NCBI GenBank assembly: GCA_916610825.1
Contig: OU744446.1
Location: 16,488,538 to 16,552,537, forward strand
DNA length: 64,000 nucleotides
Source: Haliclystus octoradiatus
Lineage: Eukaryota; Cnidaria; Staurozoa; Stauromedusae; Haliclystidae
Reading direction: 5' to 3'
Position numbers and translations under genes: made by a program. Positions 271-61,160 of this stretch are shown piece after piece. The notes under the pieces were generated by a model. The model worked only from the letters and a program-made list of their open reading frames with translations. It searched no databases and was not told where the DNA came from. Position 1 is the first letter of the stretch, and every line of letters begins with the position of its first letter.

Positions 271-613
271 CTTTTATTAATGAATATGGAAAGAAATCTC
301 GATCGTCTAGAGGTTTTAAATATGTTGGTAGATCTTCGTTTAATTTCTTCAGACGTACATCTTCAAATTTACAATTCTTTTGATATAGTGCAGCAACTGG
401 TATAAATTTTTCATTGCCAAATAATTCTTCTGTTACTTCTAACACATAACTTATCGGGGTTTCAATTTTTTCAAATTGATCCCTCAATTCCATCGTAGGT
501 GGTTTGACATAAGCAATGTTTTTATTATTTGAATCCAATGACAATAAAAATGTCTGAGCATAGGATAATGATCTTTTACCGTTATCGCAGTCATACGAAC
601 CAATAAATTGGAA
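271..613 (-). CDS. Exon 26 of the mosaic gene (unrecognised C-terminal domain)
   Basis: Acceptor TTTCTTTACAG precedes the exon and AAAG|GTAATT ends it, leaving phase 1, so the gene continues beyond the window. It encodes residues about 1154-1267, starting FQFIGSYDCDNGK and ending YSLIK. Two cysteines, many Lys/Glu and no transmembrane stretch are seen. I do not recognise the domain; with the preceding two exons it looks like a separate folded unit. The reading frame is open over 114 codons and in phase with exon 25. Confidence 0.72.
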
Positions 614-6600: not shown

Positions 6601-8795
6601 ATTCTAACGTAACAAAAACGTTAATTACAATCGAATTGTATCATTCAAAACGTATATCTATTTTAAATTATTATCTCAAGCAATACAATTTGTCAATTTA
6701 AAACCAATATACATTTACAGTTTTTTATAATTCACAGTTTAATATGTTAAATTTGTCAAAACCAATGCTGCGCTGTTATTAGTTCTATTTGCGTTACTCT
6801 TTATAGTGTGATTGTGGCTCCGTTATGCAGTAGTTGATATTGCTATGTTTATGGAAATTAGATAAATAAGATTTGTTTTCCTGCATTTTATTGCCAGAAC
6901 TTGCTGATGAGTCCTGATCTCTGATCTTTTGTTAAGCAGTGATTATTATAGCGCATATAATTTCGTATTTCTCAACTACTGTATTAAATGTACTAATTCA
7001 GATGCCTGCAGAGTTCTGTGTGCAGTCATAAAGTAATACACGAAGCAATAAAATCTATATTCTACCAGCAGACAAGACAAATATCCGTTATTAGTTTCTT
7101 TTTTCATAGATCAATTAAAAATTGATAACTGTTAAATATATTAACAATCTCAAAACAACCTTTTACAGGAATTAATAGATTTGATAAAAACCCTGTCCCA
7201 AATGATCTTATATCGAGTGCACAGTATCAGTGTATAACAGCACCCTTTATATGTGTATTCTTTCCGCAAGTATATTCTATTTCGAAATGAATGCGTCAGT
7301 ATATACTGTCTCTATTTGTGATGTTGGATGATTGCTAGACCATAACTGAATATTTGATCGAGAGCTGAGTTACACCTTCTATAATGTCTATAATGCGTGA
7401 TTCCAAATCCATCATCTCCTTTAGAAAAGGACAGGACATGTCCTTCATTGTATATGGCTTCTTAAAAAAGCCGGATAGAATTTTTTTGTTTCTATATACC
7501 AACAAGATGAACAGTGTTGACTAACTTTACTAGGATTGTCATTATACGACTCTATATATCCTTGCCATTTGATTGTTGTGTTAATTTCGCGTAAAATATT
7601 GTCTTACGGTGATTGATTGAATTTGGAAATAAAGGCTTTACTTCTAACTTACTTAGAGTCAATGGATTTCTTTTGGCAGCCAAATACCGTTAAAAATGCA
7701 TGGTATATGTTTCCGCTATTCTAGCAAGCAAGAAGCTGTTTTTCCAAAACTTCCGAAATCAAAAGTTGGGGGTGTCACGCACCCCTACATCCGTACTATT
7801 TTCGGCCTTGCTTGATATCACGATATATAGTCATTAGATGTATATCGGATATAATTGGAAACATTTCATGACAGTATATCTAGGATTGTAATCAGATACA
7901 GCCATTCAAGTTGATATGGGGATATTTTTAGGGGTTTTCAAAATACCGATAGTTCACTTTCAGCAACGTTAACGTGTAGGTCTCTCAAATGAGAGCGAGA
8001 CATGCCAATGACTATAGTTATCACTGAATGTCAAACCTTAACTCTGAAGACGATATTGCTATCTTAACAAATAGCATATCTGATGCACAACAGCTTCTTG
8101 ATGAAGTTGAATGGGTTGGTAAAACGGTAGGCTTGACAATTAACACGACCAAGACGAAATTTATTGCTTTAGGCATAAAACAGGCACACCTTGCTACATC
8201 TAATGGTGACATAGAACGTGTAGATTCGTTCAAGTACCTAGGTTCTGTACTTCCATCTTCTTCAGATGATTTAACACAACGTAGAGGCCAGGCTTGGGCA
8301 GCCATTAAAGGTCTGAATAAATTCTGGGCGTCCGATGTCAACACTGACGTTAAGTTAAGACTGTTCAGACACACGATAGAACCGGTTCTATTATATGCAT
8401 CTGAAACGTGGGTTCTATCAACCTCACTATTGACCCGACTTGACTCAGCTTATGACGCCATGCTTCGGCATGCTTTAGGAGTACATTGGCCCAACTTACT
8501 GTCTACTGCTAAACTTAGAAAACTTTCCCCTTCTCAGATGTTTTTTTTAGGTCACATCGAAAGATCAAGGACGTATGCCCCTCAACCGCTGCATGACATC
8601 CTTCATTGGCAACCGAAGGAGATGCTTCGACGGGGCTATGGGAGAGTAGTATCTTTTCATAATGTTTTGTATCGTGAATTGTGTTATTTAAAATTTTCTT
8701 TATCAGCTATGTCTGACCGTGTTTTGTGGCGTTCTTTGTGTAGCAAATATGTAAGGCGTAGGAGGGACGGCACATTCCTATAATGTGACTGTCTA

Positions 8796-8833
<38 letters not shown>

Positions 8834-47800: not shown

Positions 47801-50800
47801 GCAACATGGCGTATGGCTAACGATTATATTGTCGTGAAGAACTATTTACCGCCATTATGTAGCTTATTATCTTACCTTTTTGTATACTGGATAACCTCTC
47901 TTCCGTTGTCAAACAATCTCCAAAGAGGAGCACGCTGTTTATCTTTCAAATCACCTAGAATAATACTATGGCCTCCGGTGAAGGTTGCATGTATACGATC
48001 ATACTCCACTGGAAAGTCATCCTACAAATGATTTTAAATAAAGGCAAAGCTATATGTTAAGATAAAGGCATAAAGTTGACTTTAAAATTAGTCTTCGAAT
48101 ATGTAGCATGATGCACTAATTCGCTACAGTATTTGTGGCTTGAAAAATGCAATTCACGTTTCAACGTTGAGCAAACTAAGCGCGATGGTCATTTTTATGC
48201 CTTTAGAATGGTTTATAATTTATTCAACTTCAAATTTGCTTGATGCTCATTATTATTTGAACGCCAAATCATCCTCCGAAGGATCTACGAAAGTGGCTTA
48301 AAGTGAATACTTATCTTATATATAGCTTATCAGCGCAATAACACAGGTGTATCGGCATTATTCAAATGGTTATAACATCTAGATAAGATGTAATATCAGT
48401 TTACTAGGAAAAGTAACGTAGAACTAATGTATACATTAATAGTCTTTTGACGGGGTGTACCATTTCAGAAATCGAGCAAAACCGAGCAAAAATTTAACAG
48501 CAAGTTAAGAGGGAGACCCTATAATGTCATGTTTTTATGAGGAAAGCAAAGGAAACTTCTCAAAATTTCGAAATAACTCAAGTTGACACTGTAAAATTTC
48601 ACAAGAATCTGGAAAAAGGCATCCCCAAGAATGGCTTGTCCCAGCACAGCAGATATATGGAAGTCCCTCGGGTGTAAAAATGTTCACAATAAGTATAGCT
48701 GATGTCATTGTTTTGATGTGATTGCCTTGTGTCCTCGTCTATTGCTGAAGATGGTTCACATAGTAATTGATCTGTAATGATTAAAGTGTTGAATGGTGCC
48801 ATTAAAATATCTTGACTAACCCAAGTAACATTTGAATTTATAGGCAACCCAATTTTGGCTCAAAATCACTGTTGTCTCTCCCTGTCGACGTCCTCACTAT
48901 TCGCAGTAATTATTAAGCGCGTATTAATTATAAAAAATACAAAACTATGCGTCAGTAAATGACAGCTATATGCTTAGGTTTGTACGTACTATTTGAAATT
49001 ATAAACAGAATACAGATAAGCTCCTAATTGAATCATACTTCATCATCTGAAACGCCATCTCCATCTTCATCTCCTTCACACGCATCACCAATGCCATCTT
49101 TATTCAGATCATTCTAATCATAGAAAGTTATGGAAAATATCTAAACAAGATGCACACAATGTTCATGAGCATAACAATTGTTTATAAATGTTCAATGTTC
49201 AGATTTTGGAGTACAAGTAGAAGTCTACAAGCAACCTCATTTTGAAACATTGAAACATCAGTTGTGAGATCAGCAAATCGGTTTAAAGTTTTCCACAGGG
49301 TTTTGAAAATCTAGAAATGAAAATTTTGAGTTTGTTATTTATGTAGCAGTTTTTACTTTTCAATCCAAATTTTCAAGTTATTTTAATATACATATGATTC
49401 AACAGAAACTGATTATTAAAATGTGTTGAGATTTGATTTAAAATTGCCCACAAAGTATAGCAAAGAAGGGCAACTTTGGAGTTTTGTATGATATATATAT
49501 TTGATAGATGTTGACTCTACAAAGGTTGACACAGAAAGAGGGTCAGTTCATATTACATTGATTATTTACATGTAGAGAAAGACTGATACAAACGGAAGTA
49601 ACAACATATAAAAACCATTACATAGATGTCCCCTCTACGGAGACGGATTCACAACAAACAAAAACAAATACTTTATAAGAAATTTTAAATTAAACATGAA
49701 TTAAATAATGAGTATGATAAAAATCTGTTCATTTATCAAAAACGACAGTTCATACATTGTACATTATAGTTGTAAATTGTAGCGACGCTGATATTGAGTT
49801 GACGAGGTTTTGTTTCAAATTCTTCGGACAATTTTATTTATCGATCGGAATTTTAAATCTTTGTTCTGATGATTTCCATACGGTAGAGAAGGAGAGTGAT
49901 GTCTGCTTATCCATATGGTTTTATCTAATGATGATGGGTAGGTAATGATGATGTCTACTGGCAGACAAAAAGGGGCTTTGAAAGGACTTGCCAAGAGAGA
50001 GTGAATTCCCCTCAAAATGTTGTTCAAAGCCTCGTCACGCAGCTATGCACAGAAAGCCTCTCATATTCTCATCGATCTGTTGTTGTAATATGAATATTCT
50101 ATTGATTATTCAAGTCTATTGCCCACGTTACTGGGTATTATTGTCATAGCGGATTTGCTTTGAGGCCTACTGTCTGCCCACAATAGCGTTTAATTCTGCC
50201 CTATTAGCTGCTGCTCCTAAACATATAGTTAAATAAAAAAATTGTTATTTGTTGTCAAAAGCGTTCTAAGATCTTCTCGACGCCGTCAAAATAAGAAGTG
50301 ATTTGAAAGAATGCCGCTTGCGTCGACGCTTTGTTGTGAATAACCACAATATGTATGCGATAAAAAGCTGTCACGTTTATAAATAGGGCGTCAAACGGCG
50401 GATAATTTGACAAACTATGCGACCGAAAGCAGGTCTCAATACGTAATAAAATACATTGAACTATTCGGAAAGTTGGGAATATCAAAATAAGTCAAGGGAT
50501 AATTTTACGTCATTAAAAGCGTGCTTTCCATAAAGCAACTCTTTGAAATGACAGGGAGGGCAATTCCCCGTGTGCCCATATGTATGGATGAGCCGCCACT
50601 GTGGACATGTACACATTTCATTCTTGAAATAAGTAAAAAAAGCTTGACCGAAGTAAAATCTTCTTGCTCTTCCTGTGTTATTACGTAATGTTCGTATTTG
50701 GTAGGATCTGACATAGTATTATTACGAATTGTTATTGTTAGCTGGTTGTTTATCTTTCACATGCCGCTGTATAATATGTTTCGAACAAAAGGAAGCGATA

Positions 50801-53800
50801 AAAGAGCCATACATTACAACGCGTCGTTCTCGTCTTGAAGTGTAAACAATGTTATAAATGGGTCCTGTTTTTCAAGATTTATTAGTGCAGTTTTCTCTGT
50901 AGTATTTATCCATGGTATGTTTTATGGTTATACGTCTTCCTGGTCTGGGTAATTTCTCCATGTGTTATTATGATGTATTTAATATGTGATCTCATGTGAT
51001 ATTTATTGAGATTGTGCTTGGTTTTTGAGGGATTGTATTGGTCTGAGTGCATGTGACGGTGCGTGATGATAATTATAAATTTATTGAGATTTTTGCATCG
51101 TATTGTCATGATATAAGTTACTGTTTTGTAAGTTGTGCATGTGTTATTGCGTATTGTTTCTGATTTTTCCCTCTTGTTTATTCATAGTTGTTGAGTCAAT
51201 GCATAAAGCTATACTACATTACCCCGAGTTTTCCGTCTCCACCATAAAGATCCTCCAAATAATAAGCTCAAAGGCTTGAACTGCACATTTGAAATTTCTG
51301 TATGCATGTCATGAATACGGTAGTCAAAACGCTTTTAGATTTTTTTGATCGCTGGAAAATCTCTATGGCAAAGTAAAATACGATGTGAATGACAAAAATG
51401 TGATCTAGCCGTAAATTGTCATCAATATTTACGAAAGGTTGTAAATATGTCTCATTTTCTCTTTTATACCACTGAATTCTATTTAAAATGTAAACATCTA
51501 TATATATTCTGTAATCTTCTATGCATCTGTCATCTTACCTGCTTCTTGTTTGGAAAGAAGGGGCAGTTATCATTGAGATTATCAATACCATCCATGTCAA
51601 GGTCACTGTCACACTTATCGCCAGCATGATTGATTCCATCCGTGTTAGCCTGCATATAATAAAATAGCTATCAGCTTAGTATTACATCATGGCAGAAAAA
51701 TTTATCAGAAGTATGTATTCAGAACATTATGAATTTGCTCTATGAATCCGAGTTTACTGCAATACGAGGTCCATACATGAATGATTTTGATATATAGTTT
51801 TTGCAAGAGTACTTTGAGCTTTAACTTTTCAGGATTCCCTGCCACAAGAAATCTCCTCGCAGAAACGATTCCCCTGAGATTACGAATAATTTTAGATATT
51901 AAGCTCGATAGATGATCTAGGTTTGGTTCAGTTAGGGGCAAATACATTTACATATTCCTATAGTTACATACAAGTGCTATTTGTAATAGGATTTCAAAAC
52001 CGCAATGGCAGATATTTGTCCAGAAAGCAAGAAAGTGGCTCAATCTTAAATTTTCATAAATAACATTGATCACTCACCTGACCTCCATTTGGCACCGAGG
52101 GACAATTATCCTTCCAATCTGGTACACCATCATTATCTCTATCAGGTTTTTCACATTTATCACCAATCAAATTTTGATTACTATCTTCTTGAAAATAATT
52201 ACTAAAAAACGGACAATTGTCACATGCGTCATCTTTACCATCAAGATCAGTATCTTTTCCTGAAGAAGATGATGCCGTATTTGGACACGGATCTCTTTTA
52301 TTAACTTTATCATCATTATCAATATCATCATCACATAAATCACCCATTCCATCGCCATCAGTATCTAATTGATCATAATTTACCGTTATAAAACAATTAT
52401 CACATTGATCAATGATTGTATCACCATCAGCATCATTAACAATTTCATGATTTTCAGTTGATAATATACAATAATTATCCATATCTCCACTTCCGTCATT
52501 TTCAACATCATCATCACATGCATCGCCTTTACCATCCAGATCTGTGTCTTCTTGCCCACTATTAACTATATATGGGCAGTTATCCTTTCGACAATACTTT
52601 GCTGTGCAATTTAACTCAGAATTTGAAAATCCATCAGAATCAGAGTCGAAGCCGCATACTCTACCATCCCCCGTGAAACCAATAGGACATTGGCAAATGT
52701 AGAATCCAGGTTCAGTATTTACACATTGTGATCCTCTATTACATAGGTGAGCTGAAGAATTTTCACACGGATTCTTTGGAATGCAAACTAATGAAGATAA
52801 AATCGTTTGTGTACTTGTTAATTATCGTCAAATTATTAAATAGCAATGTTCAGTTTGTAGTTACGGCGTTATTGTAGTTAACGTAGCTATAGTTTATATG
52901 TTTAATAGTTAGTTGTTTTGGCTGGAAAATTGCTCCAATCAAAACATTTTTGGTATGGACTTAGCAAAATCAGATTTCTATTGATATATTCGAAAAATCC
53001 GATATAATGAAGTTAAAGTCATATCCACATTTATTTTGAGCCGGATTCACGATATATATAGTGTTGGATTGCTCACTCCTTAACGATTAAGGTTTTTATC
53101 CAGTCGGTAAATCATAAATGTACAGAACTAGTGAGTGAGTGAGTGCCTTTAACATTCATGTTTACCTTTTCCGATTGGAGTCCAAGTTCCGTTCTTGAGA
53201 CAGCTAGTTCTTTGCTCCAATATTATAGAACGCGGGTCTATACATTGAGCTGTACAAGTAGAACCTTCAAAACCGTAATCGACACTGCATTCGAATGTCG
53301 CATGTAACTTGCCAAACTTAAAAAGAAATTTAGTAATAATAGTGAACATTTTTATCTTGCATCCGCTACGTATAAGAGCTTCAGCATAGGATTTTTATCT
53401 TGCATCCGCTAAGTAAGAAATTCAGCATAGGATAATAGCATCGGAGACCATCAGAGTATCTTTGGAAGATGGTACTATTCTATAACACAAGCAACAGTAT
53501 ATAGGTCAATGGATACTTCAATATTTGATCCAAAAGTTAGACATATTATCACTATCGATTTCATATAGGACATCATTGGAACACGTTCAAAGTAGTTATG
53601 GCATAAGTAAATGAATTGTCTCAATATATACGCGTCGACTTGCATGATTAATACTTATTGAAAGGGATTTACTTAATCTTTAGAATTTAATTTACATTGG
53701 AGACAACGCAGGGAAAGAAATGATGCATATTTGAAAGAGACTCCTGCGGTATACAGCATATATATCAATTTAACACTGTTAATCAATTTCAAAAGTCTGC

Positions 53801-56800
53801 ATGTGTGTATAAACTTTACCATGTAACCTTTCTCATTTACCTCTTGCCATATATTACTGTACGGTCGTGTCTGCTGTATCAAAGAGCAAGGGCTAACGGC
53901 CATTGTAACCCTTAGAATCTAACCCTGTAATGTCAGCAGACACGAACTACCATCATCATATAATAAAGATAATATACATCATTTGGGTCGTTATTCAATC
54001 CTGCACAGATATTGAAATTCTAATTACATGTCAGTTTGCGTTTAGCATCCCAGTGATTTCTCATGCACTATATGGAATTACCTGTGGTTTATTGTCTGGA
54101 TGTCTGCATTCATGCTGTTTGGTACATGTTGCGTTTCTGCCAATCCAAGTCCCATCTTCTTTATTACATGTAAATACCCCTGCATCACTTGGAGTTTTAT
54201 CAGCTGAATCTGAACATATCAATTGGCATTGAAGTGGTTGATACGAACAGTTGTACCATCCATACTTGACTGTCTTATTCAAGAGTGGACAACCTTTGGA
54301 CATCATAAAAGGAGGAAGGGAATTGAATGATTTAGGAGTTAATTGAAAAATGTGGTATCATTGATTGATAGTTTCTCTATAGCATATAATTAGATGATTT
54401 GTCTGGAAGAAAGACGGAGTCGAGTCCATGAATGCAATGTAAAAATCGTATTTGCAAGAAATTGTCGCTGATATATTTTCAGAGCAAGATTATATGATAC
54501 CTTCGACAATTCGTATCTTCTATGCACGATTTATCACTACCAGCATCAGCCCCGGGCATCAACCTTGAATCTCAACGTGATTCATTGGTATTATTTATGG
54601 TGTCATTATGTACTACACATCTAGTAATTTTGAGCATCCACTTTAGTTCATTATTTTTGGCACGACGAACTAATCCCGAAGTATTTATAAAAACGCGCAA
54701 AGTAACAAGTACTCATGTATTGTTTACCGGAGCGACAATATAGGTTTTTTCACCATATCAATCCACCAGGTTTGTTTTTGCTTAAGCTGATAATGATTAT
54801 AAGCATTATTCTCGCTACATCAATAAAAGTAAAACTTTAGTATTTTTGGCTCTTGTGCAACTATACAGTGGACATTGAGAATCGAAAATAGTTCATTGTT
54901 GAATTATGAACGTCAACAAATTTCATTTTTATAATGCTAGCATTGTTTTCTTATCGGAAACGGGATTAATTTCTGTTGTTTTTGGTTGGTAAACTGTTGA
55001 TAATAGTATACGCAAAATATATAAGACATAATCTAAAACTTGTTTTATGATCATGTTCTAGGTTAGATGAATTATTTTTCTTGAGCTGGTGTGTAATATG
55101 AGCTAATGACAAATAATGTTTTATCATCCTGAAGAAATTTGCTAGGATCTTTTTTATCAATTAATTTTTATGACACCAGAGACTGAATATTCCATTATAA
55201 TGATGGTACTCTTTGACTGTCAGAAAACAATGCTTACTCTTTCAATTTTGATCTCCTTATGTTGAAATTCAAACGATGGAAGGCTGTATAGTATTATTTG
55301 GACAATTACAGAAATTTTTACCTTAATTTTAATATAATGTCTAATCGAAAAGCATAAATTAGAAATAGATCGATTACTTACAGTGTAAAAGACAACTCAA
55401 TAAAATCAAATTTCTTTCACTCTCTAAAATCGTCACAGATGATACCCGAAACATTGAGTATTTTTTAGTAAAACATTCAAAATTGCTGGTTGTCTTTGAC
55501 TTCTGTTCTACAAGAAAAGCTAAAGTTTGACGGTAGTCAACTCGGGCGCGATGGCTAATTGTTAAATAGACCGAGCGCCACATATATTGAAATTTGAAAC
55601 TCACACAAAATGTTCATGTAAACACCATAAATACTTTCGCGTTTCTTGTCTAAGACAAATTTTATTGTGGAGCTCACCAACGTTGAATTTGTAAATCATT
55701 TCACGGCCAGAGTCTTCTTAATTCATACATTTCGTGTTTTTGTCATGCTTTTGTGGATTCGCAAAATCATGGGAGAACAAAAGAATCAAAGACCATGAAG
55801 CTCACATGCAGCTTTTTCTCAAAACGATAAGAAAGCTTTGACCGTGAATCATGAAATATAAATTGCATTTTTGAAGGGTTCACAATAAATTTAATTGAAA
55901 CAAGAAATAGGAAATTGTTCAGCATATTTTTATGAACACTTTTATGTGAAATTCAAGTCGCCCGGAGAAACCTGCCGTTTTAGTTCTGTGGCACTCGGTC
56001 TATACTCATCAACGACTGTATAATATTGTTGTTACTTACTATGCGGTGTTGTTGCTGGTATTGGTGAATTAGAAGGACTTGGATATGGCGTAACAGTCTA
56101 TAGCCAAATAAATTATGTATAATAAATCATCATTTTGGAAGCAAAGCATTCTAAAAGTATTAAATATAAAACCTTCAACTTACAGAATTTTGTTTTTGAT
56201 TTTCTTTTGACCCCTTTGTTTCTCTACGAACTGAAAAACAATTGACAGTGAGATGAATTATCAATTTCAACATTGTTTGAGAAATAATTGTATTATCTTC
56301 ATGAAATCGAATCAATCAGAATGTATAAATTACTGTATTTTATATTCATGTTACTCTATATATTTCATCACAGAATGTGAAAACATGCACAACACCTTAG
56401 AAGTTCTTTTTATTATTTTGATCTAGGCTAGCTCTGGCCGAGTGAAACATACCTATAGGCCTATAACTATATACGGGAGGAAGATGAAAAAAGTAAATGG
56501 CATATGTGCCAGTCAGAATTTATATTCTATTGTATTTTATATTCACGTAGCTCTATTTATTTCATCACAGAATGTGAAAATATGCTCAACAAGTTAGAAG
56601 TTCTTTGTAATATTATTATCTAGGCTAGTTCTGGCAGAATGAAATATACCTAGAATATACGGGAATCAGGTGAGAGTAAATAACGTATGTACGTGTCGTC
56701 ACACAATGATTCTGCTTTCTTATTGCGAAGAGTTACAAATTATTCTTATCGAAGGTATTCACTTACTTTCTTACTATTAGATTTTAACCAATCATCAATA

Positions 56801-57806
56801 AAACATATCAAAGGAAATTTCTTTCTTACAAGAATATTTTGCGTGTTTCAAGTCAATTTTTCTTGCTGAAAAACATCCTTGTCTTAAGCAAAATATATTG
56901 TACATGTCCAACTTTTTAAGCGATCTCACCATGCAAGGGAAACAACTTAAAAGCTAGGAATCAAAAGTAAATGCGGCTTAAAACGAGGACTTTTCGAGAA
57001 AAGTTGACTTCATATAAGCAAAATACTCTTTGAAGAATGAAATTATCTAAAGAGTATTGGCATAATTAAAAACGGGAAATATTAAATAAAAATAAAAACT
57101 TTGATCAGAGTTTAATACCAATGAAGATCCCAATGCAAATGATAACGATTAATGCGATAAGTAGAATGAAGGTTATAAACACGCATCTTATTTTTCTTTG
57201 CCTTTCATCATCTTTGGTCTTACGATGGTCGCGATTCCTCTTGTTGGATTTTGACTTTGGCTCAGTCTGTATGTGATGAAATAAATATAGAGTGAAATAT
57301 ACACAACAATATCGCACACTTAATATAAAATTATTTGACCAACTCCAGATGACAGCAATGAGCAATACTGGAACGCACTTTTTATGTATAGATAGAATAG
57401 ATACATAGAGTATATCTGTCATAAATTGAATGATATGAAATTGACAGGCAAATAATGGGAAGAACAACTTCCATTTGAATAGAGCCTAAAATGAATAATA
57501 AAATATATTGATTTGGTCTTCAGAGTTAAACAACATTGAAATTTCTGCAGTATGATGATAAGTCAGCCTTTGATAATCTATTGCTAAAACTGATAGGATG
57601 TATGGTCTTTTTCAACTCTGAAGAACTTTCTAATTAATACAGGAGAATAATATGAGGTATTTTTAATATGCATTTAAAACTTAGTTCAATAAAATAATGA
57701 AACTGATTGATATTGAAATTTTAATAATAATATAGTGTTATTATCATATAATCATAATTATAATAAAACCTACCATGCAAAAGGGTTTAACTTTGCTTGA
57801 TTTCAT
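271..57806 (-). CDS. Type II membrane mosaic protein: CCP-EGF-thrombospondin-LamG/MAM, 26 exons, 3' incomplete
   Basis: One spliced gene was assembled by eye from 26 minus-strand exons (57774-57806 down to 271-613). All phases match, and 3802 coding nt give 1267 codons with no stop. The start is ATG at 57806, with an in-frame TGA nine bases upstream of it on the minus strand. The protein should sit in the plasma membrane with its N-terminus inside. It has a basic tail, one hydrophobic anchor (residues about 39-61), a Pro/Ser/Thr stalk, two CCP-like modules (about 96-217), EGF (about 218-257), acidic calcium-binding type 3 repeats (about 258-515), a thrombospondin C-terminal lectin-like fold (about 516-736), and LamG interrupted by MAM (about 737-1080). 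The part after about 1092 is not recognised. Family knowledge predicts a calcium-dependent adhesion or matrix-binding ectodomain; the ligand is unknown. Classical thrombospondins are secreted and end at the C-terminal domain, so this is not an ordinary thrombospondin. It could still be two neighbouring genes, but continuous phase argues for one. Confidence 0.8.
614..1377. other. Intron 25
   Basis: No exon or RNA gene is seen. The stretch 700-1190 is rich in GATCTGATC / GATCAGAT words in both orientations, a low-order degenerate repeat with no clear unit. Confidence 0.5.
1378..1470 (-). CDS. Exon 25 of the mosaic gene
   Basis: A 93-nt phase 0-0 exon (31 codons) between acceptor TCTGAAAG and donor AAG|GTAATC. 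The peptide begins DIYPDLTTLKGAKSR and ends RSSAPLK. It is basic, Ser-rich and probably a linker; no known motif is seen. Confidence 0.62.
1597..2473. mobile_element. TTA-flanked non-autonomous DNA transposon with perfect 33-bp TIRs
   Basis: The ends are exact inverted copies over 33 bp (left 1597-1629, right 2441-2473, beginning GGCTAGGGTTATATGGACGC). The direct trinucleotide TTA flanks both sides (1594-1596 and 2474-2476). A 3-bp TWA duplication is typical of PIF/Harbinger-type elements, so that class is inferred. No transposase is seen. Inside lies a perfect 16-bp inverted repeat with a 1-nt loop (1726-1758). Confidence 0.82.
1726..1758. repeat. Near-perfect cruciform hairpin
   Basis: Arm AGCTCCGCACATCAAG (1726-1741) is followed by one base and its exact complement (1743-1758). 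It lies inside the TTA-flanked element. Confidence 0.85.
2720..3066 (+). mobile_element. LINE 3' fragment (RT C-terminus plus CTA tail), copy 1
   Basis: This matches the end of the longer LINE copy at 8039-8832: the region encoding HWPNLLSTAKL..., then PQPLHDILHW and KYVRCKREGTFL, followed by a shared 3' end TGTGACTGTCTATACTACTAC. It is 5'-truncated and has small internal deletions. The product would be inactive. Confidence 0.8.
3137..4775. mobile_element. TTAA-flanked TIR element, 1.64 kb
   Basis: Ends AGTGCCTATGAAATGAA (3137-3153) and its inverse (4759-4775) are flanked by TTAA on both sides (3133-3136 and 4776-4779). TTAA is the target-site signature of piggyBac-type elements; class membership is inferred from that alone, since the tips do not resemble the usual piggyBac CCC start. 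No transposase reading frame is visible, so it is probably non-autonomous. Confidence 0.72.
4977..5067 (-). CDS. Exon 24 of the mosaic gene
   Basis: 91 nt, phase 2 in and phase 0 out; acceptor AAAATTTCAG and donor AAG|GTAAGC. It encodes LDSAAGAIYIMSKEK...NRCRKPSK (residues about 1092-1122) and joins in phase to exon 23, 21.9 kb upstream in the gene. Its function is unrecognised; the single Cys may pair with one in exon 26. Confidence 0.65.
5068..6437. other. Start of the 21.9-kb intron 23, no gene seen
   Basis: No conserved reading frame, RNA gene or clear mobile-element terminus is seen. Short open frames at 5565-5972 lack recognisable motifs on either strand and look random. Confidence 0.4.
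6448..6986 (+). repeat. Left terminal inverted repeat of the Mutator-like element
   Basis: Inverse of 10464-11030, with small indels, for example around 6580-6600 and 6880-6900. Confidence 0.85.
8039..8832 (+). mobile_element. 5'-truncated LINE with 12-bp target duplication, copy 2
   Basis: The insertion is bounded by direct repeats AATGTCAAACCT (8027-8038 and 8833-8844). It opens within the RT just at the catalytic DD (DDIAILTNS). It continues through the thumb region (GLTINTTKTKFIALG, FKYLGSVLPSSSDD, LFRHTIEPVLLYASETW), reaches a stop at 8783, and ends in a (CTA)n tail (about 8796-8832). Target-primed integration explains the truncation and duplication. The domain upstream of the DD box is missing, so it is inactive. 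The RT resembles CR1/L2/RTE-type LINEs; the exact clade is uncertain. Confidence 0.88.
9432..9640. repeat. Foldback MITE-like repeat, about 209 bp
   Basis: The left arm starting AACCCGACGTGA (9432) and including TTTCGATCTGGAAAT is inverted at 9586-9640. Arms are about 50 bp with some mismatches. No target duplication could be fixed. Confidence 0.72.
10464..11030 (-). repeat. Right terminal inverted repeat of the Mutator-like element
   Basis: Inverse of 6448-6986. The short open frames here are not genes, because the same arm also occurs inverted on the left and is not conserved as protein. Confidence 0.85.
11041..12672. other. Intron 23, no gene or clear repeat
   Basis: No exon-like or mobile-element protein signature is seen on either strand. 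Short frames at 11523-11852 overlap on opposite strands and look random. Confidence 0.4.
12673..13320 (-). mobile_element. LINE 3' fragment, copy 3 (minus strand)
   Basis: This is an inverted relative of the copy at 8039-8832. Read on the minus strand it encodes FKYLSSVLPSSSDD, LRLFRHTIEPVQLYASETW and HWPNLLSTAKLRKLSPS. It then shifts frame near 12840 and ends with the shared GTGACTGTCTAT and a short CTA-like tail. The frameshift makes it a pseudogene fragment. Confidence 0.83.
13557..13920 (+). pseudogene. Ty3/Gypsy gag remnant
   Basis: Read in one frame through a TGA and a TAG: HWENWIEDFK, then FRRATELQKANGE, then DALLYCIVQKMRTKYFEHL. A shifted frame carries FDTVTRKFTEDFLPKRNIIR with ERTIFQ. 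The W..W..F..F pattern followed by F.PK.N.I.ER..F is the retrotransposon gag signature. Stops and shifts show it is dead. It may belong with the RT/RNase H remnant at 20030-20885, split by later insertions. Confidence 0.65.
13991..14087. mobile_element. 97-bp hairpin MITE with TAGCCTGC ends
   Basis: Almost a complete inverted repeat: TAGCCTGCACGCAGACC... reads back as ...GGTCTGCGCGCAGGCTA, with arms over 40 bp and a tiny loop. Flanks GGTGAAGG (13983-13990) and GGTGAGGG (14088-14095) look like a target duplication with one mismatch. The same 16-nt tip, apart from one or two bases, ends the element at 22804-23820. Confidence 0.82.
14145..14319 (-). repeat. 3' LTR of the Gypsy element
   Basis: 175 bp, 94% identical to 18312-18486. 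The polypurine tract lies directly inside it. Confidence 0.93.
14454..18298 (-). pseudogene. Broken gag-pol polyprotein gene of the Gypsy element
   Basis: Translation starts at ATG 18298, only 13 nt inside the 5' LTR. Gag opens with a SAP-like helical region (MGSVLLLKSLKKEQAIAACA), shifts frame near 17950, and later carries a Cys-rich knuckle spaced CX3CX4HX6C rather than the usual CX2CX4HX4C. The protease shows FLLDGGATCNIL near 17160, with DGG where D(S/T)G is expected. RT carries YMDD (about 16310), RNase H CDASPVGLG and TDHKPL, and integrase an HHCC finger (HRNHPG...CDLC, about 15110-15220). The integrase core shows the three acidic positions in HIDYS (about 15020), SDNGPQF and DAERAVQ. 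An SH3-like tail ends at 14454. Frames break near 17950, 16650, 15050 and 14610. It is annotated as a decayed element; no intact product is possible. Confidence 0.88.
18312..18486 (-). repeat. 5' LTR of the Gypsy element
   Basis: 175 bp. The next bases inward on the minus strand (ATTGGCGACGTGAATGGG, 18294-18311) are where the primer-binding site should lie; I could not assign the tRNA. Confidence 0.92.
18503..18701. mobile_element. 199-bp TTAA-flanked MITE, copy 1
   Basis: Inverted ends AGGGGCAAAATTGACCGGC and its near-complement (GCCGGTCATTTTTGCTCCT) are flanked by TTAA (18499-18502 and 18702-18705). A second copy of the same length lies at 47500-47698 in the opposite orientation. TTAA suggests mobilisation by a piggyBac-type transposase (inferred). 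Confidence 0.82.
18738..19145. repeat. Inverted degenerate TTCGGCGCAACGGAC minisatellite
   Basis: The segment 19020-19145 has about six copies of a roughly 20-bp unit like ACTTTCGGCG(CAACG)ACC in plus orientation. The segment 18738-18775 has one to two units in minus orientation. About 240 bp of unrelated sequence lies between. Confidence 0.72.
19255..19278 (+). repeat. (ATG)n microsatellite
   Basis: Eight ATG/GAT triplets in a row. Confidence 0.95.
20030..20885 (+). pseudogene. Ty3/Gypsy RT and RNase H remnant
   Basis: Degenerate RT pieces: TPFGRYCFKLILMGI, GLPGCDVIMDNIIVYG (the YxDD-box region, here IMDN), and later RNase H: VSEKASSYGLSGVLIQ, MPVAFCSRRLKDSEKRYSQI. Several shifts and stops separate the pieces. 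It is a different family from the element at 14145-18486, because residues around both boxes differ. Confidence 0.77.
20886..22690. other. Intron 23, little recognisable content
   Basis: The only repeat noticed is 21170-21255, a direct relative of 28315-28400, sharing TTTGCATAATTTCCCGACAA and neighbouring bases. No genes are seen. Confidence 0.45.
22698..22775. repeat. Short GC-rich inverted-end segment
   Basis: CATACTGCA near 22700 is mirrored by TGCAGTATG near 22770, enclosing a locally GC-rich stretch with GGGAGCGAAGCGAC. It may be a small MITE; no duplication could be fixed and no tRNA fold is evident. Confidence 0.4.
22804..23820. mobile_element. 1017-bp Mutator-like non-autonomous element, 9-bp duplication
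   Basis: TIRs of about 107 bp with two mismatches (22804-22910 and 23714-23820) begin TAGCCTGCTCGCAGAC. A perfect 9-bp direct repeat ACAGCCTAC flanks them (22795-22803 and 23821-23829). The size of the duplication and long TIRs fit Mutator-like elements. No transposase is present. Confidence 0.88.
23830..25786. other. Intron 23, no gene seen
   Basis: Contains a 15-G homopolymer at 24885-24899 and a weak inverted pair around 25275-25345 (GATAATATCAC and GTGATATTATC). No coding or mobile protein signal is seen. Confidence 0.45.
25790..26649. mobile_element. TAA-flanked TIR element built from repeated TGAAGCCAACATTTTCACAAC units
   Basis: The ends AGCCC(C/A)GG(C/T)CAAATGAAGCC are inverted copies flanked by TAA (25787-25789 and 26650-26652). 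Internally, segments like GGTGGCCAAATGAAGCCAGC recur near 25880, 25950, 26485 and 26565. The TAA duplication suggests a PIF/Harbinger class. It shares its terminal AGCCC(C/T)GGCCAAAT with the element at 44791-45286. Confidence 0.78.
26964..27049 (-). CDS. Exon 23 of the mosaic gene (LamG end)
   Basis: Acceptor CTTTATCCAG and donor AG|GTGAGC; phase 0 in, 2 out. It encodes VSVWRADSAPRNFD..., continuing MIDE from exon 22 to form the (I/M)DEVxxWxR strand that closes LamG-like jelly rolls. The phase choice rejects a nearer AG that would give a stop. Confidence 0.77.
27733..27861 (-). CDS. Exon 22 of the mosaic gene (LamG)
   Basis: 129 nt, phase 0-0, acceptor TTCTATACAG and donor GAG|GTATAG. It encodes KLILNKKENESDISLSP, SGEIYLGYT and NFMEGMIDE. 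The GxIxLG...F.G.IDE pattern is the second half of a laminin-G/concanavalin-type fold. Confidence 0.82.
28683..28819 (-). CDS. Exon 21 of the mosaic gene (LamG)
   Basis: 137 nt, phase 1 in and 0 out, acceptor CTATCGACAG and donor CAG|GTTTGT. It encodes PNIFVKGDTLYGGFENVK and YGIWNYIAFEYDKLSQ. The WxxIAFxYD motif is the central strand of LamG-like domains. Confidence 0.82.
28915..28985 (-). CDS. Exon 20 of the mosaic gene (end of MAM, linker)
   Basis: 71 nt, phase 2 in and 1 out, acceptor CTATTCCAG and donor G|GTAAGT. It encodes AGCQLKPQCYQVKTHPILSN. The first Cys is the expected closing cysteine of MAM. Confidence 0.8.
29355..29446 (-). CDS. Exon 19 of the mosaic gene (MAM C-terminal strand)
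   Basis: 92 nt, phase 0 in and 2 out. It encodes NIGEVPVRLRFQATRGEGS and SDIAIDDIIF. The (G)xIAIDDIxF signature is diagnostic of MAM domains. Confidence 0.88.
29820..30140. other. GC-richer stretch in intron 18
   Basis: Less AT-rich than its surroundings and open on the plus strand from 29838 to 30116, but no motif is recognised and no splice continuity with the host gene is apparent. It is possibly an old repeat insertion. Confidence 0.3.
30919..31128 (-). CDS. Exon 18 of the mosaic gene (MAM core)
   Basis: 210 nt, phase 0-0, acceptor ATCTTTTAG and donor ACC|GTAAGT. It encodes CSFITPWFLTSETCMVDLSV, then HMYDGSTG and SGNQGNRWF. The C..(L/V).FxYHMxG pattern and GNQGxxW are MAM features. Choosing the upstream AG keeps the frame open; the next AG would introduce a stop. 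Confidence 0.87.
31909..32128 (-). CDS. Exon 17 of the mosaic gene (MAM N-terminal half)
   Basis: 220 nt, phase 2 in and 0 out, acceptor AAATATCAG and donor AGA|GTAAGC. It encodes NIECNLKTIDFG, GMDDETLWIYAY, then TGPLEDHTPGDKDGYYAVMN and GLNPGDR. The DDxxxW...TGPxxDHTxG...YxxV...PGDR string is the classic opening of a MAM domain. Confidence 0.88.
32474..32595 (-). CDS. Exon 16 of the mosaic gene (LamG first strands)
   Basis: Acceptor TTACGTTTTAG; the donor chosen is GTAAG|GTAGTT, because it gives the phase 2 needed by exon 17. The alternative GGC|GTAAGG five bases earlier breaks the frame. It encodes INNYALSLNGITSKIVLEK and DTRISLWVNILKG, the A-strand and (S/F)xWV strand of a LamG jelly roll. 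Exon 15 joins directly in phase 0. Confidence 0.75.
33000..36958. other. Intron 15, part before the hAT element
   Basis: No exons or RNA genes are seen. The segment 34849-35012 is a dispersed repeat, related by inversion to 55520-55684 and directly to 55866-56010. Confidence 0.45.
34849..35012 (+). repeat. Dispersed repeat (copy A)
   Basis: Contains TTTCAAATTTCAATATATGT followed by GGCGCTCGGTCTATTTAAC, matching the reverse complement of 55520-55684 at high identity. Confidence 0.8.
36967..40407 (-). mobile_element. hAT element with 8-bp target duplication and ZMYM/TTF-type transposase remnants
   Basis: Perfect 13-bp TIR CAGGGGCGCAAAT at 36967-36979 is inverted at 40395-40407. A perfect 8-bp direct repeat GACAGACG flanks it (36959-36966 and 40408-40415). 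These are defining hAT features. Minus-strand coding pieces inside encode a TTF-type zinc finger and a hAT dimerisation domain. The element lies in intron 15 of the host gene and is oriented the same way. Confidence 0.95.
37444..40034 (-). pseudogene. Broken hAT transposase (TTF zinc finger to dimerisation domain)
   Basis: Pieces in order are: an acidic Ser-rich N-terminus (40034-39846); a finger with DPSKHSRFCADWFREFSHLK and DAAYCFCCQLF (39812-39468); a segment with HCPLLKGWLNDA (near 38540); LRNLFGTRWVARCESIKA (38417-38232); FEFIVELMFMRNVM (38235-38005); and the C-terminal dimer domain with SASNERAFSKLNLIKT (37869-37444). The family resembles ZMYM1-like hAT transposases. Stops and shifts separate the pieces. 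The stretch 38640-39460 shows no transposase signal, so part of the catalytic core appears lost or replaced. Confidence 0.85.
40964..41089 (-). CDS. Exon 15 of the mosaic gene (end of thrombospondin C-terminal domain)
   Basis: 126 nt, phase 0-0, acceptor GTCCTTTAG and donor AAG|GTAAGC. It encodes VADSGNIFDKTYRGGRVGVY and FRQSNTYFSAM. The ADSG.I.DKTY.GGR.G.F.FSQ pattern is the conserved last third of thrombospondin C-terminal domains. The usual final Cys is absent here. Confidence 0.88.
41946..42137 (-). CDS. Exon 14 of the mosaic gene (thrombospondin C-terminal domain)
   Basis: 192 nt, phase 0-0, acceptor ATCTATAG and donor AAG|GTATTG. It encodes MINSTTGPGKELSDALWEKG, ANQSRVLW, AYTWKIIHNPDSGRLRITW. 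The NSTTGPGxxLxxALW block and (A/S)YxWxxxHxPxxGxxR match thrombospondins closely. Confidence 0.93.
42175..42575. repeat. Foldback repeat, about 400 bp, next to exon 14
   Basis: Left arm (about 42183-42248, GATTCGGGTAGCT...GAAGAATA...TTGGACGCG) is inverted at about 42502-42566 with roughly 80-85% identity. It sits about 40 bp upstream of the exon 14 acceptor. Confidence 0.72.
43162..43177 (-). CDS. Exon 13 of the mosaic gene, 16-nt microexon (predicted)
   Basis: Exon 12 ends in phase 2 and exon 14 begins in phase 0, so an intervening exon of length 1 mod 3 is required. The 16 nt here lie between acceptor ACAACTATAG and donor AAG|GTAAAC. They add W-L-R-C-F-K, which aligns with the strand just before the VxNSTTGPG block of thrombospondins. 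Short length keeps confidence moderate. Confidence 0.55.
43731..43784 (-). CDS. Exon 12 of the mosaic gene (thrombospondin C-terminal domain)
   Basis: 54 nt, phase 2 in and 2 out, with a strong acceptor AATTTCTCTGCAG and donor TG|GTATGC. It encodes NFYICTWRITMGFIRAK. With exon 11 this gives FGYQSNRNFYICTWR, matching the family's FGYQ-SSRFYVVMWK strand pair. Confidence 0.82.
44791..45286. mobile_element. 496-bp TAA-flanked MITE
   Basis: Inverted tips AGCCC(T/C)GGCCAAAT followed by (A/G)ACTTTTxTATTTC are flanked by TAA (44788-44790 and 45287-45289). Internal blocks with ATTCATCGGATTT repeat in both orientations. The tips match those of 25790-26649, so both elements may be moved by one transposase family. 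Confidence 0.82.
46523..46609 (+). repeat. 22-bp tandem repeat with palindromic core
   Basis: About four near-identical copies of ATCATATATATGATAATGTG plus two bases. The ATCATATATATGAT core is self-complementary, so the array could form repeated cruciforms. It lies in intron 11 just below exon 11. Confidence 0.92.
46676..46804 (-). CDS. Exon 11 of the mosaic gene (thrombospondin C-terminal domain)
   Basis: 129 nt, phase 2 in and 2 out, acceptor GCAATTTCAG and donor AG|GTATGT. It encodes EPGMFIGKNQFGQLEYTGTV, then FLGLVFGYQSN. The PGxxxGxxxFxxxxFxGTxxV...GFxFGYQ pattern is diagnostic of the family. Confidence 0.93.
47500..47698. mobile_element. 199-bp TTAA-flanked MITE, copy 2
   Basis: Same element as 18503-18701, inverted relative to it, with TTAA at 47496-47499 and 47699-47702. 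The stretch GCGCTTAGGATCACGTGCAT is shared. Confidence 0.85.
47876..48021 (-). CDS. Exon 10 of the mosaic gene (start of thrombospondin C-terminal domain)
   Basis: 146 nt, phase 0 in and 2 out, acceptor AATCATTTGTAG and donor AG|GTAAGA. It encodes DDFPVEYDRIHATFTGG and APLWRLFDNGREVIQYTK. The P.W...D.GrEv.Q....pG stretch (with exon 11) is the entry strand of the thrombospondin C-terminal fold. Confidence 0.86.
48022..49038. other. Intron 9
   Basis: No exon is recognised. An 82-codon minus-strand frame at 48599-48847 lacks a plausible splice connection or motif. Confidence 0.45.
49039..49113 (-). CDS. Exon 9 of the mosaic gene (last type 3 repeat)
   Basis: 75 nt, phase 0-0, acceptor TATGATTAG and donor GAA|GTATGA. 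It encodes NDLNKDGIGDACEGDEDGDG and VSDDE, a calcium-binding thrombospondin type 3 repeat with its Cys. Confidence 0.93.
49114..51538. other. Intron 8
   Basis: No exon, RNA gene or clear mobile element is seen; AT-rich with several short overlapping open frames that look random. Confidence 0.45.
51539..51649 (-). CDS. Exon 8 of the mosaic gene (type 3 repeat)
   Basis: 111 nt, phase 0-0, acceptor TATATGCAG and donor CAG|GTAAGA. It encodes ANTDGINHAGDKCDSDLDMD and LNDNCPFFPNKKQ: the DxDxDG...DNCP..PN..Q pattern of type 3 repeats. Confidence 0.94.
52078..52787 (-). CDS. Exon 7 of the mosaic gene (EGF plus six type 3 repeats)
   Basis: 710 nt, phase 1 in and 0 out, acceptor CTTCATTAG and donor CAG|GTGAGT. 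It opens with CIPKNPCENSSAHLC and SQCVNTEPGFYICQC, a six-cysteine EGF module. Acidic repeats follow: DSDSDGF, DTDLDGKGDACDDD, DADGDTIIDQCDNC, DTDGDGMGDLCDDD, DTDLDGKDDACDNC, DRDNDGVPDWKDNC. These bind calcium in thrombospondins and cartilage oligomeric matrix protein. One repeat carries an irregular ENDGSGDMDNYC, and another keeps Asn in place of Asp (EDSNQNLIGDKC). Confidence 0.95.
53166..53316 (-). CDS. Exon 6 of the mosaic gene (second CCP-like module)
   Basis: 151 nt, phase 0 in and 1 out, acceptor TTCTTTTTAAG and donor G|GTAAAC. It encodes FGKLHATFECSVDYGFEG, then C..QC and TSCLKNGTWTPIGK. The C-(x)n-Y-G-F-x-G...C..NGTW pattern is sushi/CCP-like. It begins in exon 5 with ECRHPDNKPQ. Extra cysteines make it non-canonical. 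Confidence 0.83.
53345..53436 (+). repeat. Tandem duplication, about 46-bp unit
   Basis: TTTTTATCTTGCATCCGCTA...TTCAGCATAGGAT occurs twice in succession just above exon 6. Confidence 0.75.
54082..54293 (-). CDS. Exon 5 of the mosaic gene (first CCP-like module)
   Basis: 212 nt, phase 1 in and 0 out, acceptor ATGTCCAAAG and donor CAG|GTAATT. It encodes CPLLNKTVKYGWYNCSYQ, CQLICSDSA, VFTCNKEDGTWIGRNATC. The G.....C...GTW....C end is CCP-like; the Cys-rich middle differs from standard sushi modules. It ends in ECRHPDNKPQ, the start of the second module. Confidence 0.86.
54294..55519. other. Intron 4, distal part
   Basis: No exon or repeat is recognised apart from scattered short open frames. 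Confidence 0.45.
55520..56012. repeat. Foldback pair of the dispersed repeat (copies B and C)
   Basis: 55520-55684 is inverted relative to 55866-56012; both share the end GTGGC(G/A)CTCGGTCTAT. Copy B matches 34849-35012. The pair forms a foldback of about 490 bp in intron 4. Confidence 0.75.
56040..56097 (-). CDS. Exon 4 of the mosaic gene (Pro/Ser/Thr stalk)
   Basis: 58 nt, phase 0 in and 1 out, acceptor TTTGGCTATAG and donor A|GTAAGT. It encodes TVTPYPSPSNSPIPATTPH, a likely O-glycosylated stalk. Confidence 0.82.
56184..56230 (-). CDS. Exon 3 of the mosaic gene (juxtamembrane)
   Basis: 47 nt, phase 1 in and 0 out, acceptor TTGTTTTTCAG and donor TCT|GTAAGT. It encodes RRETKGSKENQKQNS, a hydrophilic segment just outside the membrane anchor. 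Confidence 0.8.
56333..56665 (+). repeat. Tandem duplication of about 198 bp in intron 2
   Basis: The stretch 56333-56475 recurs at 56531-56665. Both contain TGTATTTTATATTCA(T/C)GT, TTTCATCACAGAATGTGAAA and TTAGAAGTTCTTT, at roughly 85% identity. Confidence 0.82.
57119..57266 (-). CDS. Exon 2 of the mosaic gene (basic tail and membrane anchor)
   Basis: 148 nt, phase 0 in and 1 out, acceptor TCATCACATACAG and donor G|GTATTA. It encodes TEPKSKSNKRNRDHRKTK, then a 23-residue hydrophobic run starting CVFITFILLIALIVII. The strong positive charge before the run predicts an N-in/C-out signal anchor, with the long C-terminal part outside the cell. Confidence 0.87.
57774..57806 (-). CDS. Exon 1 of the mosaic gene (start codon)
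   Basis: ATG at 57806 begins MKSSKVKPFCM and ends at a consensus donor ATG|GTAGGT, phase 0, matching exon 2. An in-frame TGA lies nine bases upstream of the ATG, so this is the first usable Met in this exon. The second Met at 57776 is also possible but closes the exon. Confidence 0.75.
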
Positions 57807-60179: not shown

Positions 60180-61160
60180 CATGGGAAATAAACAGGAGAT
60201 TCAATTTTCTTGCACCCTGAACGAAAAAATCACTGCACAATTTCTTCATTACCAACCTCTTTCGCATTACCCGAAACAAAACTATGAGGGATACCAAAAC
60301 GAGAAAACATATCGGCTAGTAAGCGAACAGCAGTGGATGTGGCCCGATTGGGGGATCTGCTAGTCTCAATCCAACAACTACCGGCATCTGAAACAATTAT
60401 AATTGACCCAATATCTGAAATATGCGCAAAATCAATATGACGAAACTTTCCCAGCGGGGTGCTTCTGGCAAAATGTTGATTGTTTTTGGAAAACGAGGGC
60501 GTAGCACACGACAGGTAGAATAGTTTGTATTAATTTTTTCAATTTCTTTAAAAATTCCTGTCCACCAAGTACCCTGGAGTAAAATTCGCCTGGTAGCATG
60601 ATTTCCGGAATGGGTGTTGTGCGCCTTTTTGAGTACATCCGATCTCAACTTAATTGGGATATATGGTGCTGATTTAAAACAAATGAGGTTGTTATGAACT
60701 GTAAGTTCATCTTTAACAAGTGAGAAGGCCTCTTCTGCCTCTGATAGACCGGACCAAAAGCCCGAAATAATACGTTTAATAATTCTTTGTGCAACGCGAT
60801 CGTTAGATGTTGAATCCTCAATTTGACTGCTTAAAAGAGTTGGGGCAAAAAATGCCGAGTTAGTAGCAACGGAAACGCTGGCAACTACGTCTTCCCACGT
60901 AATTGTATTTTGAGTAAGACGAGATAAAGCATCTGCATGAGTAATGTTAGCACCAGGTTCGTATTATAGTTCAAACTCGAAGGCAATAAGATTAATAGCC
61001 CATCTAGAAAGGCGTACTGAGGCTGTTCTAGCTATTTATTTGTGAGTACCAAAGATAAAAGATAGAGCCTGATGATCGGAGACAATCAGAAATTTTCGCC
61101 CTAACCAAAGTTGACGTAGCCGTTCTACTCACCATACCACTGCAAATGCTTCACGGCCTG
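60180..61160 (-). pseudogene. Ty3/Gypsy RNase H-integrase remnant
   Basis: Minus-strand pieces in order are RNase H (REAFAVVW, FLIVSDHQALSFIFG, then NITHADALSRL), a connection segment, the integrase zinc finger (AHNTHSGNHATRR ... TCRVLRPRF) and the start of the catalytic core (GSCWIETSR, SRFGIPHSFVSGN). Several stops and shifts are present. The second catalytic position reads SGN instead of SDN. It is inactive and no LTRs were found. Confidence 0.78.

Follow-up and report, generated by a model that had tools for sequence, protein, structure and literature searches.

A sushi-type thrombospondin gene with a predicted membrane anchor in the staurozoan Haliclystus octoradiatus

The window analysed here, a stretch of 64,000 nucleotides of Haliclystus octoradiatus contig OU744446.1 (assembly GCA_916610825.1, positions 16,488,538 to 16,552,537), carried on its minus strand a thrombospondin-related gene that runs from approximately 57.8 to 24.5 kb. 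The spliced model comprised 23 exons and 1,136 residues with AG/GT borders and unbroken phase, and neither a stop nor a frame break occurred over the modelled exons. The exon chain was built from a codon-usage scan, tblastn with homologues and a homology-guided search for short exons, and the homology-guided exons 9, 12, 15, 21 and 22 were controlled with 40 dinucleotide shuffles per exon. An earlier note had described a gene of 26 exons and 1267 codons reaching position 271; the gene is real and the core of that observation is well founded, but the model gave 23 exons and 1,136 residues with a stop at 24,544. Computation established the domains and the clade of the protein, the stop codon, and the greater part of the exon chain. 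Rfam (gathering threshold) and a tRNA scan of the window were both empty.

Relatives of the predicted protein were collected in three homologue searches. The first search (8 proteins at E up to 0.001, of 5,837 candidates) contained three proteins with both TSP_C and MAM, namely P0002 from Acropora palmata, P0003 from Nematostella, and P0004. The second search (48 proteins at E up to 1e-10, of 7,078, the query P0004 counted in) added P0010 from Stylophora and P0014 and P0016 (EukProt), amid many proteins that had nothing but MAM in common with the query. The third search (12 proteins at E up to 1e-15, of 5,495, the query P0016 counted in) added P0055 and P0057, and no protein among these 12 was named as medusozoan. 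By Pfam, MAM followed TSP_C in P0002, P0003, P0004, P0010, P0016, P0055, and P0057, and in P0014 it did so by alignment only; LamG_3 was detected by Pfam in P0002, P0004, P0055, and P0057. The earlier note had proposed to look for orthologues with the same order; homologues with MAM behind TSP_C came, for example, from Acropora palmata, Nematostella, and Stylophora.

The domain order of the spliced protein was a basic tail, a membrane anchor, a stalk, two sushi-like modules, an EGF-like stretch, type 3 repeats, TSP_C, and a MAM domain between two LamG-type parts. All exons are given by their window positions on the minus strand. Exon 1 (57792-57806, MKSSK) is the start chosen in the earlier note; its phase fits and its donor is weak (GTTAAA). 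Exon 2 (57119-57266) encoded the predicted basic cytoplasmic tail and transmembrane anchor and was aligned to the tail and transmembrane segment of P0003, P0004, P0014, and P0016. Exon 3 (56184-56230) encoded part of the stalk, with 3 of 15 residues identical to the best homologue, and exon 4 (56040-56097) a Pro/Ser/Thr-rich stalk; Thr-rich stalks lay at the same place in P0014 and P0016. Exons 1, 3, and 4 were placed by phase and splice signals alone; together with exon 22, they lack homology support and are tentative. Exon 5 (54082-54293) contained sushi-like module 1 and the start of module 2, with cysteines that align with those of coral sushi modules and 21 of 68 residues identical to P0003, and exon 6 (53166-53316) contained the remainder of module 2, placed by phase and homologue alignment (11 of 46 residues identical to P0014). 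No Pfam Sushi/CCP hit was obtained in the spliced protein, and the two modules were recognised by cysteine spacing and homologue alignment only; in the relatives P0014 and P0016, one had no Pfam Sushi hit and the other had one at E 0.014, below the cut-off.

The anchor and N-terminus were read from Kyte-Doolittle hydropathy only, interpreted by eye. The window protein contained one transmembrane-like segment at residues 36-54 (19-residue mean 3.42) following the basic tail. The 15 residues before and the 15 residues after this segment were equally basic (+3 each), and therefore charge alone leaves the topology unsettled. Among the seven homologues examined, four (P0003, P0004, P0014, and P0016) had just one transmembrane-like segment each (means of 2.79 to 3.08), immediately preceded by a run of basic residues. 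These segments began 66-125 residues in and are therefore too distant from the N-terminus for an ordinary signal peptide. By the same reading, P0005 and P0026, canonical TSPs from beetles, showed a hydrophobic, signal-peptide-like N-terminus, and in the third canonical TSP, P0006, this stretch was weaker (1.17, residues 7-25). The tails of the four anchored homologues shared, by eye, the pattern x-N-K-(V/I)-(S/T) after basic residues, and KSNKRN of the window protein was aligned there. The other three of the seven models had no anchor: P0002 begins within the sushi region; P0055, from a partial contig, begins where the sushi region ends, directly ahead of the EGF; and P0010, scrambled with duplicated blocks, begins between the place of the anchor and the first sushi module and has neither an anchor nor an evident signal peptide. 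We regard all three models as incomplete. P0057 begins inside TSP_C and was left out of the comparison. From hydropathy, flanking charge and homologues, we infer an anchor with a probable type II topology; the membrane anchor claimed in the earlier note is retained as a prediction from sequence.

An anchored protein may not stay anchored. Shedding is common among stalked membrane proteins, and the basic residues of the stalk just outside the membrane (VRRETKG) could serve a cleavage that routinely frees a soluble, thrombospondin-like adhesion protein; we regard this outcome as unlikely, though worth keeping in mind. A sushi-TSP that is secreted from the outset, the hydrophobic exon being alternative or spurious and the main transcript carrying a signal peptide, seems to us decidedly improbable. 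Canonical thrombospondins are secreted; exons 1, 3, and 4 are the weakest of the model, three of the seven homologue models are without an anchor, and an upstream first exon may lie beyond 57.8 kb. However, the basic run and transmembrane-like segment were present in four of the seven homologues, and these are the ones whose models reach that far.

The thrombospondin core was encoded by exons 7 to 14. Exon 7 (52078-52787) contained the EGF-like stretch and type 3 repeats (tblastn E 3.6e-41 with P0003; Pfam TSP_3 above and EGF below the cut-off), exon 8 (51539-51649) a further type 3 repeat (best tblastn E 3.2e-5, with P0005; Pfam TSP_3), and exon 9 (49039-49113) the last type 3 repeat, with 17 of 25 residues identical to P0014 and a best score of 94 against a shuffle maximum of 14 (0 of 40 shuffles as good). 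TSP_C was divided over five exons: part 1 in exon 10 (47876-48021; tblastn E 2.4e-4 with P0002), part 2 in exon 11 (46676-46804; E 2.5e-7 with P0002), part 3 in exon 12 (43703-43784; homology-guided, best score 51 against a maximum of 26 in 40 shuffles), part 4 in exon 13 (41906-42137; E 1.2e-12 with P0003), whose 3' end adds nine residues opposite a homologue gap, and part 5 in exon 14 (40964-41076; E 6.5e-10 with P0003).

The domain search on the spliced product that the earlier note had suggested brought three families over the Pfam cut-off: TSP_C (E 7.4e-50, covering positions 1-195 of a profile of 198), TSP_3 (E 1.5e-38, six stretches), and MAM (E 2.9e-16). The single EGF-like stretch at residues 222-255 (best EGF_3, E 2.8e-4) and LamG_3 (E 9e-4) remained below it, and Sushi was absent. 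Compared with PDB, the EGF, type 3 and lectin-like part matched the thrombospondin-2 structure 1yo8 in a single 524-residue stretch (E 8.4e-105), and the MAM part matched MDGA1 (E 1.8e-8). When five homologues were compared, counting columns with at least three homologues present and agreeing, the window protein kept 35 of 35 invariant cysteine columns and 216 of 290 invariant columns, cysteines included. The DDD calcium motif of TSP_C, encoded in exon 11, was KDN in the window protein versus DDD in all five homologues compared. In canonical TSPs this motif coordinates calcium and controls matrix deposition, according to the sections covered of the paper on sushi-TSPs (Shoemark et al., 2019; PMC6526912). 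The loss of DDD would suit a protein kept at the cell by other means than matrix deposition, but drift explains it equally well because the anchored homologues retain DDD.

To place the gene among thrombospondins, a tree of the TSP_C region was built with 11 rows; 4 of 15 chosen rows were dropped for motif mismatch, mega-TSPs and poriferan TSPs were left out, and the midpoint root served for drawing only. The window protein grouped with P0014, P0016, and P0055 (95/98), and one branch parted the sushi-TSP rows and the window protein from three canonical TSPs (100/100). The branch of the window protein was long (1.27 changes per column). At least four further TSP_C loci were found on the same contig (2.15, 9.38, 9.64, and 33.31 Mb), and each scored better in its best single piece with a canonical protein (P0005 or P0006) than with P0004; in the 10 kb retrieved per locus, no piece matched the MAM or LamG part at E up to 0.01. 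Of the five TSP_C loci found, the window gene is alone in being of the sushi type because the others score as canonical and showed no MAM or LamG pieces in the 10 kb covered. A decaying paralogue or pseudogene would account for the long branch, the missing DDD, the undetected Sushi and the LamG_3 match below the cut-off, but all 23 exons are free of stops and frame breaks, all 35 invariant cysteines are kept, and the gene is the sole non-canonical one among the five loci; we consider decay very improbable.

Exon 15 (32474-32595), homology-guided with a best score of 39 against a maximum of 23 in 40 shuffles, contained the first part of the LamG-type domain. The MAM domain followed in exon 16 (31909-32128; tblastn E 3e-5 with P0003), exon 17 (30919-31128; E 1.5e-7 with P0003), and exon 18 (29355-29446; E 0.008 with P0002), with a Pfam MAM match in all three that extended in exon 18 up to profile position 157 of 158. 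The LamG-type domain resumed in exon 19 (28915-28985), placed by phase and aligned to P0002 and P0004 (6 of 23 residues identical to P0004), and continued in exon 20 (28683-28819; placed by alignment, Pfam LamG_3 below the cut-off) and exon 21 (27733-27861; homology-guided, best score 52 against a maximum of 26 in 40 shuffles). For the tentative exon 22 (26964-27049), phase and a VxVW motif fit; it failed the shuffle control, in which another candidate was best in the interval (score 22) and 4 of 40 shuffles equalled or beat that score (maximum 27). Exon 23 (24544-24658) contained the end of the LamG-type domain and a TGA stop.

The arrangement of these exons suggests that MAM is nested in the LamG-type domain. 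Joining the strands before and after MAM lifted the LamG_3 match of P0004 from 50.2 to 63.6 bits (profile 45-146 extended to 2-146) and that of P0055 from 46.6 to 59.4 bits (profile 44-144 extended to 2-144). In the window protein, joining the flanks lifted it from 22.5 to 23.7 bits; because this gain of 1.2 bits is small and the match stays below the cut-off, the nesting there rests on the alignment. Nesting is thus supported in the two homologues and weakly suggested for the window protein. An AlphaFold model of P0057 had a mean pLDDT of 50.9, too poor to test it. The nesting appears to be new; it was unmentioned in the sections covered of the sushi-TSP paper (PMC6526912).

The passage from TSP_C into MAM and LamG also bears on whether this is one gene. 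The 8.4-kb intron that separates exons 14 and 15 and the homology-guided nature of exon 15 could indicate that a thrombospondin gene stops after exon 14 and that MAM and LamG belong to a second gene, both of them ordinary, but the phases fit across the exon 14/15 junction and MAM follows TSP_C in seven homologues by Pfam and in P0014 by alignment only. We rejected the two-gene reading as scarcely credible, and the read-through from TSP_C into MAM/LamG proposed in the earlier note finds support in these homologues. A hAT transposase C-terminal dimerisation region (37447-37920, minus strand, E 4.4e-8) lay within this intron. Other mobile-element remains in the window were a reverse transcriptase fragment (8028-8780, plus strand) and an integrase zinc-binding fragment (60400-60963, minus strand).

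The gene is closed by TGA at 24,544-24,546 on the minus strand, inside an exon aligned to homologue C-termini. The translation of this last exon was FDEGEGLYSKDLTGYDSEKIKIINSTWVASSLELKEN followed by the stop, with 17 of 35 residues identical to the C-terminus of P0004 and SSLEL plus a few residues before the stop, as in homologues. Each of the four homologues whose models extend to the C-terminus stops at the same point as the window gene, with SSSLELTYMN in P0002, SSSLELTELN in P0004, SSSLELNKN in P0057, and DSSLPEV in P0055; the models of P0003, P0010, P0014, and P0016 stop inside or near MAM and carry no information on the gene end. The exons below 24.5 kb and the C-terminal "unknown domain" that the earlier note had assigned to them lie outside the gene because of the stop at 24,544 and the homologue ends. 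A single 26-exon gene down to 271 with an additional C-terminal domain is hardly tenable: the segment 613-271 has a coding-like composition and a good acceptor, but the in-frame stop lies in an exon matching homologue C-termini, P0002, P0004, P0055, and P0057 end at the same place, a retroelement ORF lies between the stop and the last claimed exon, and beyond the window the minus strand has further open stretches, one of which matches a Death domain weakly and below the cut-off. The remaining module order of the earlier note (anchor, stalk, two CCP-like modules, EGF, type 3 repeats, TSP_C, LamG/MAM) was recovered, the CCP-like modules without a Pfam Sushi hit, and 396 residues were counted past the TSP_C match in place of the more than 500 it had given.

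The retroelement ORF (15008-16612, minus strand) had RVT_1, RNase H, and integrase zinc-binding matches. The exon 613-271 (minus strand), roughly joined with two neighbours, gave no Pfam match, and the Death-domain match outside the window was at E 0.0063. The segment 271-613 may be a coding-like part of a neighbouring gene, and our guess is that it forms one gene with the open stretches outside.

The mitochondrial genome of 18,316 bases was also inspected. Its COX1 reads TGA as tryptophan (family search, COX1 only), and its ORFs, ordered by eye, were cox1 (reversed), cox2, atp8, atp6, cox3, nad2, nad5, nad6, nad3, nad4L, nad1, nad4, and cob, with polB-like ORFs in addition. ARAGORN detected trnM and a tRNA with a tca anticodon, read as trnW. 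We take this order to equal the ancestral medusozoan order gene by gene. In the parts covered of PMC3519871, the ancestral order, which has polB and no tRNA genes besides trnM and trnW, is described as common to limnomedusan Hydrozoa, discomedusan Scyphozoa, and Staurozoa.

Our preferred reading, to which we give a probability of about 0.7, is that the window gene encodes a staurozoan variant of the sushi-TSPs, a type II membrane protein exposed at the cell surface and a putative tethered adhesion or matrix receptor. A short basic tail would lie inside the cell, followed by one uncleaved anchor and the stalk. The ectodomain would begin with the two sushi-like modules and the single EGF, followed by the type 3 "wire" loaded with calcium, and would end with the lectin-like domain and the LamG-type domain into which MAM is inserted. 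It is established for thrombospondins that the type 3/lectin unit binds calcium and ligands. Together with the two further jelly-roll domains, this unit may bind matrix proteins, integrins or glycans beside the cell, and tethering would replace secretion and coiled-coil oligomerisation. Judged by its domain anatomy, the tethered protein would be a calcium-dependent adhesion or matrix-binding receptor.

We also think it reasonably likely that cnidarian sushi-TSPs are all membrane-tethered in type II orientation, with MAM inside LamG, and form a receptor or adhesion branch that predates the split between Anthozoa and Medusozoa. The Nematostella homologue P0003 shares the anchor layout. The prevailing view takes thrombospondins to be secreted and matricellular; a tethered branch conserved in cnidarians, if true, would mean that the calcium wire and lectin unit also became a fixed receptor ectodomain, and it would bear on the early animal origin of thrombospondin functions.

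The type II anchor on a sushi-TSP appears to be new, in that it was not found in the searchable open-licence literature. In the portions covered of the sushi-TSP paper, the word "transmembrane" occurred once, in a reference title, "anchored" was absent, and the figure key showed a signal peptide and no membrane segment (PMC6526912); in a 2025 sea anemone matrisome study, the anchor was unmentioned in the ten passages covered (PMC12549020). The protein as such is not the "undescribed system" of the earlier note, since the sushi-TSP group was already published for corals, Nematostella, and calcareous and homoscleromorph sponges (PMC6526912). The occurrence of a sushi-TSP in the staurozoan Haliclystus octoradiatus therefore extends the group from corals, anemones and sponges to Medusozoa; its presence in Staurozoa was not found in the searchable open-licence literature.

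Compared with canonical TSPs (TSP-2, 1yo8; COMP, 3fby), the window protein shares the EGF, type 3 and lectin-like signature unit over 524 aligned residues. Canonical TSPs are secreted, mostly oligomeric proteins that end with TSP_C, as described in the sections covered of PMC6526912, whereas the window protein, its first exon being tentative, has a predicted anchor in place of a signal peptide, and 396 further residues in place of a terminal TSP_C. Mega-TSPs resemble it in a second ConA/MAM-like domain after TSP_C but have a signal peptide and typically over 2,700 residues, and no leucine-rich repeat or cadherin hit was obtained by Pfam in the window protein. Further domains after the C-terminal domain were already described for both mega-TSPs and sushi-TSPs (PMC6526912).

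By tree and C-terminal layout, the predicted window protein belongs with the sushi-TSPs. It shares with them N-terminal sushi-type modules, a single EGF-like domain, type 3 repeats, TSP_C with more ConA-like domains behind it, MAM among them, a length in the range of 1,000-1,300 residues, and a position in a clade apart from canonical TSPs. In the published sections covered, ConA-like domains number two in Oscarella, TSP_C counted, and three in corals; the definition calls for three or more sushi modules; and the DDD motif is present in the first ConA domain of "most sushi-TSPs" (PMC6526912). The window protein differs in having two sushi-like modules without a Pfam Sushi hit, although its introns may hold more, and KDN where DDD is usual. 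It also differs in its predicted anchor, which was not found mentioned for sushi-TSPs in the sections covered of PMC6526912, and in its occurrence in Staurozoa, whereas the group had been reported in Anthozoa and sponges. Because one defining feature differs and the usual motif is gone, the window protein is best described as a variant of the sushi-TSP lineage and not as a plain member.
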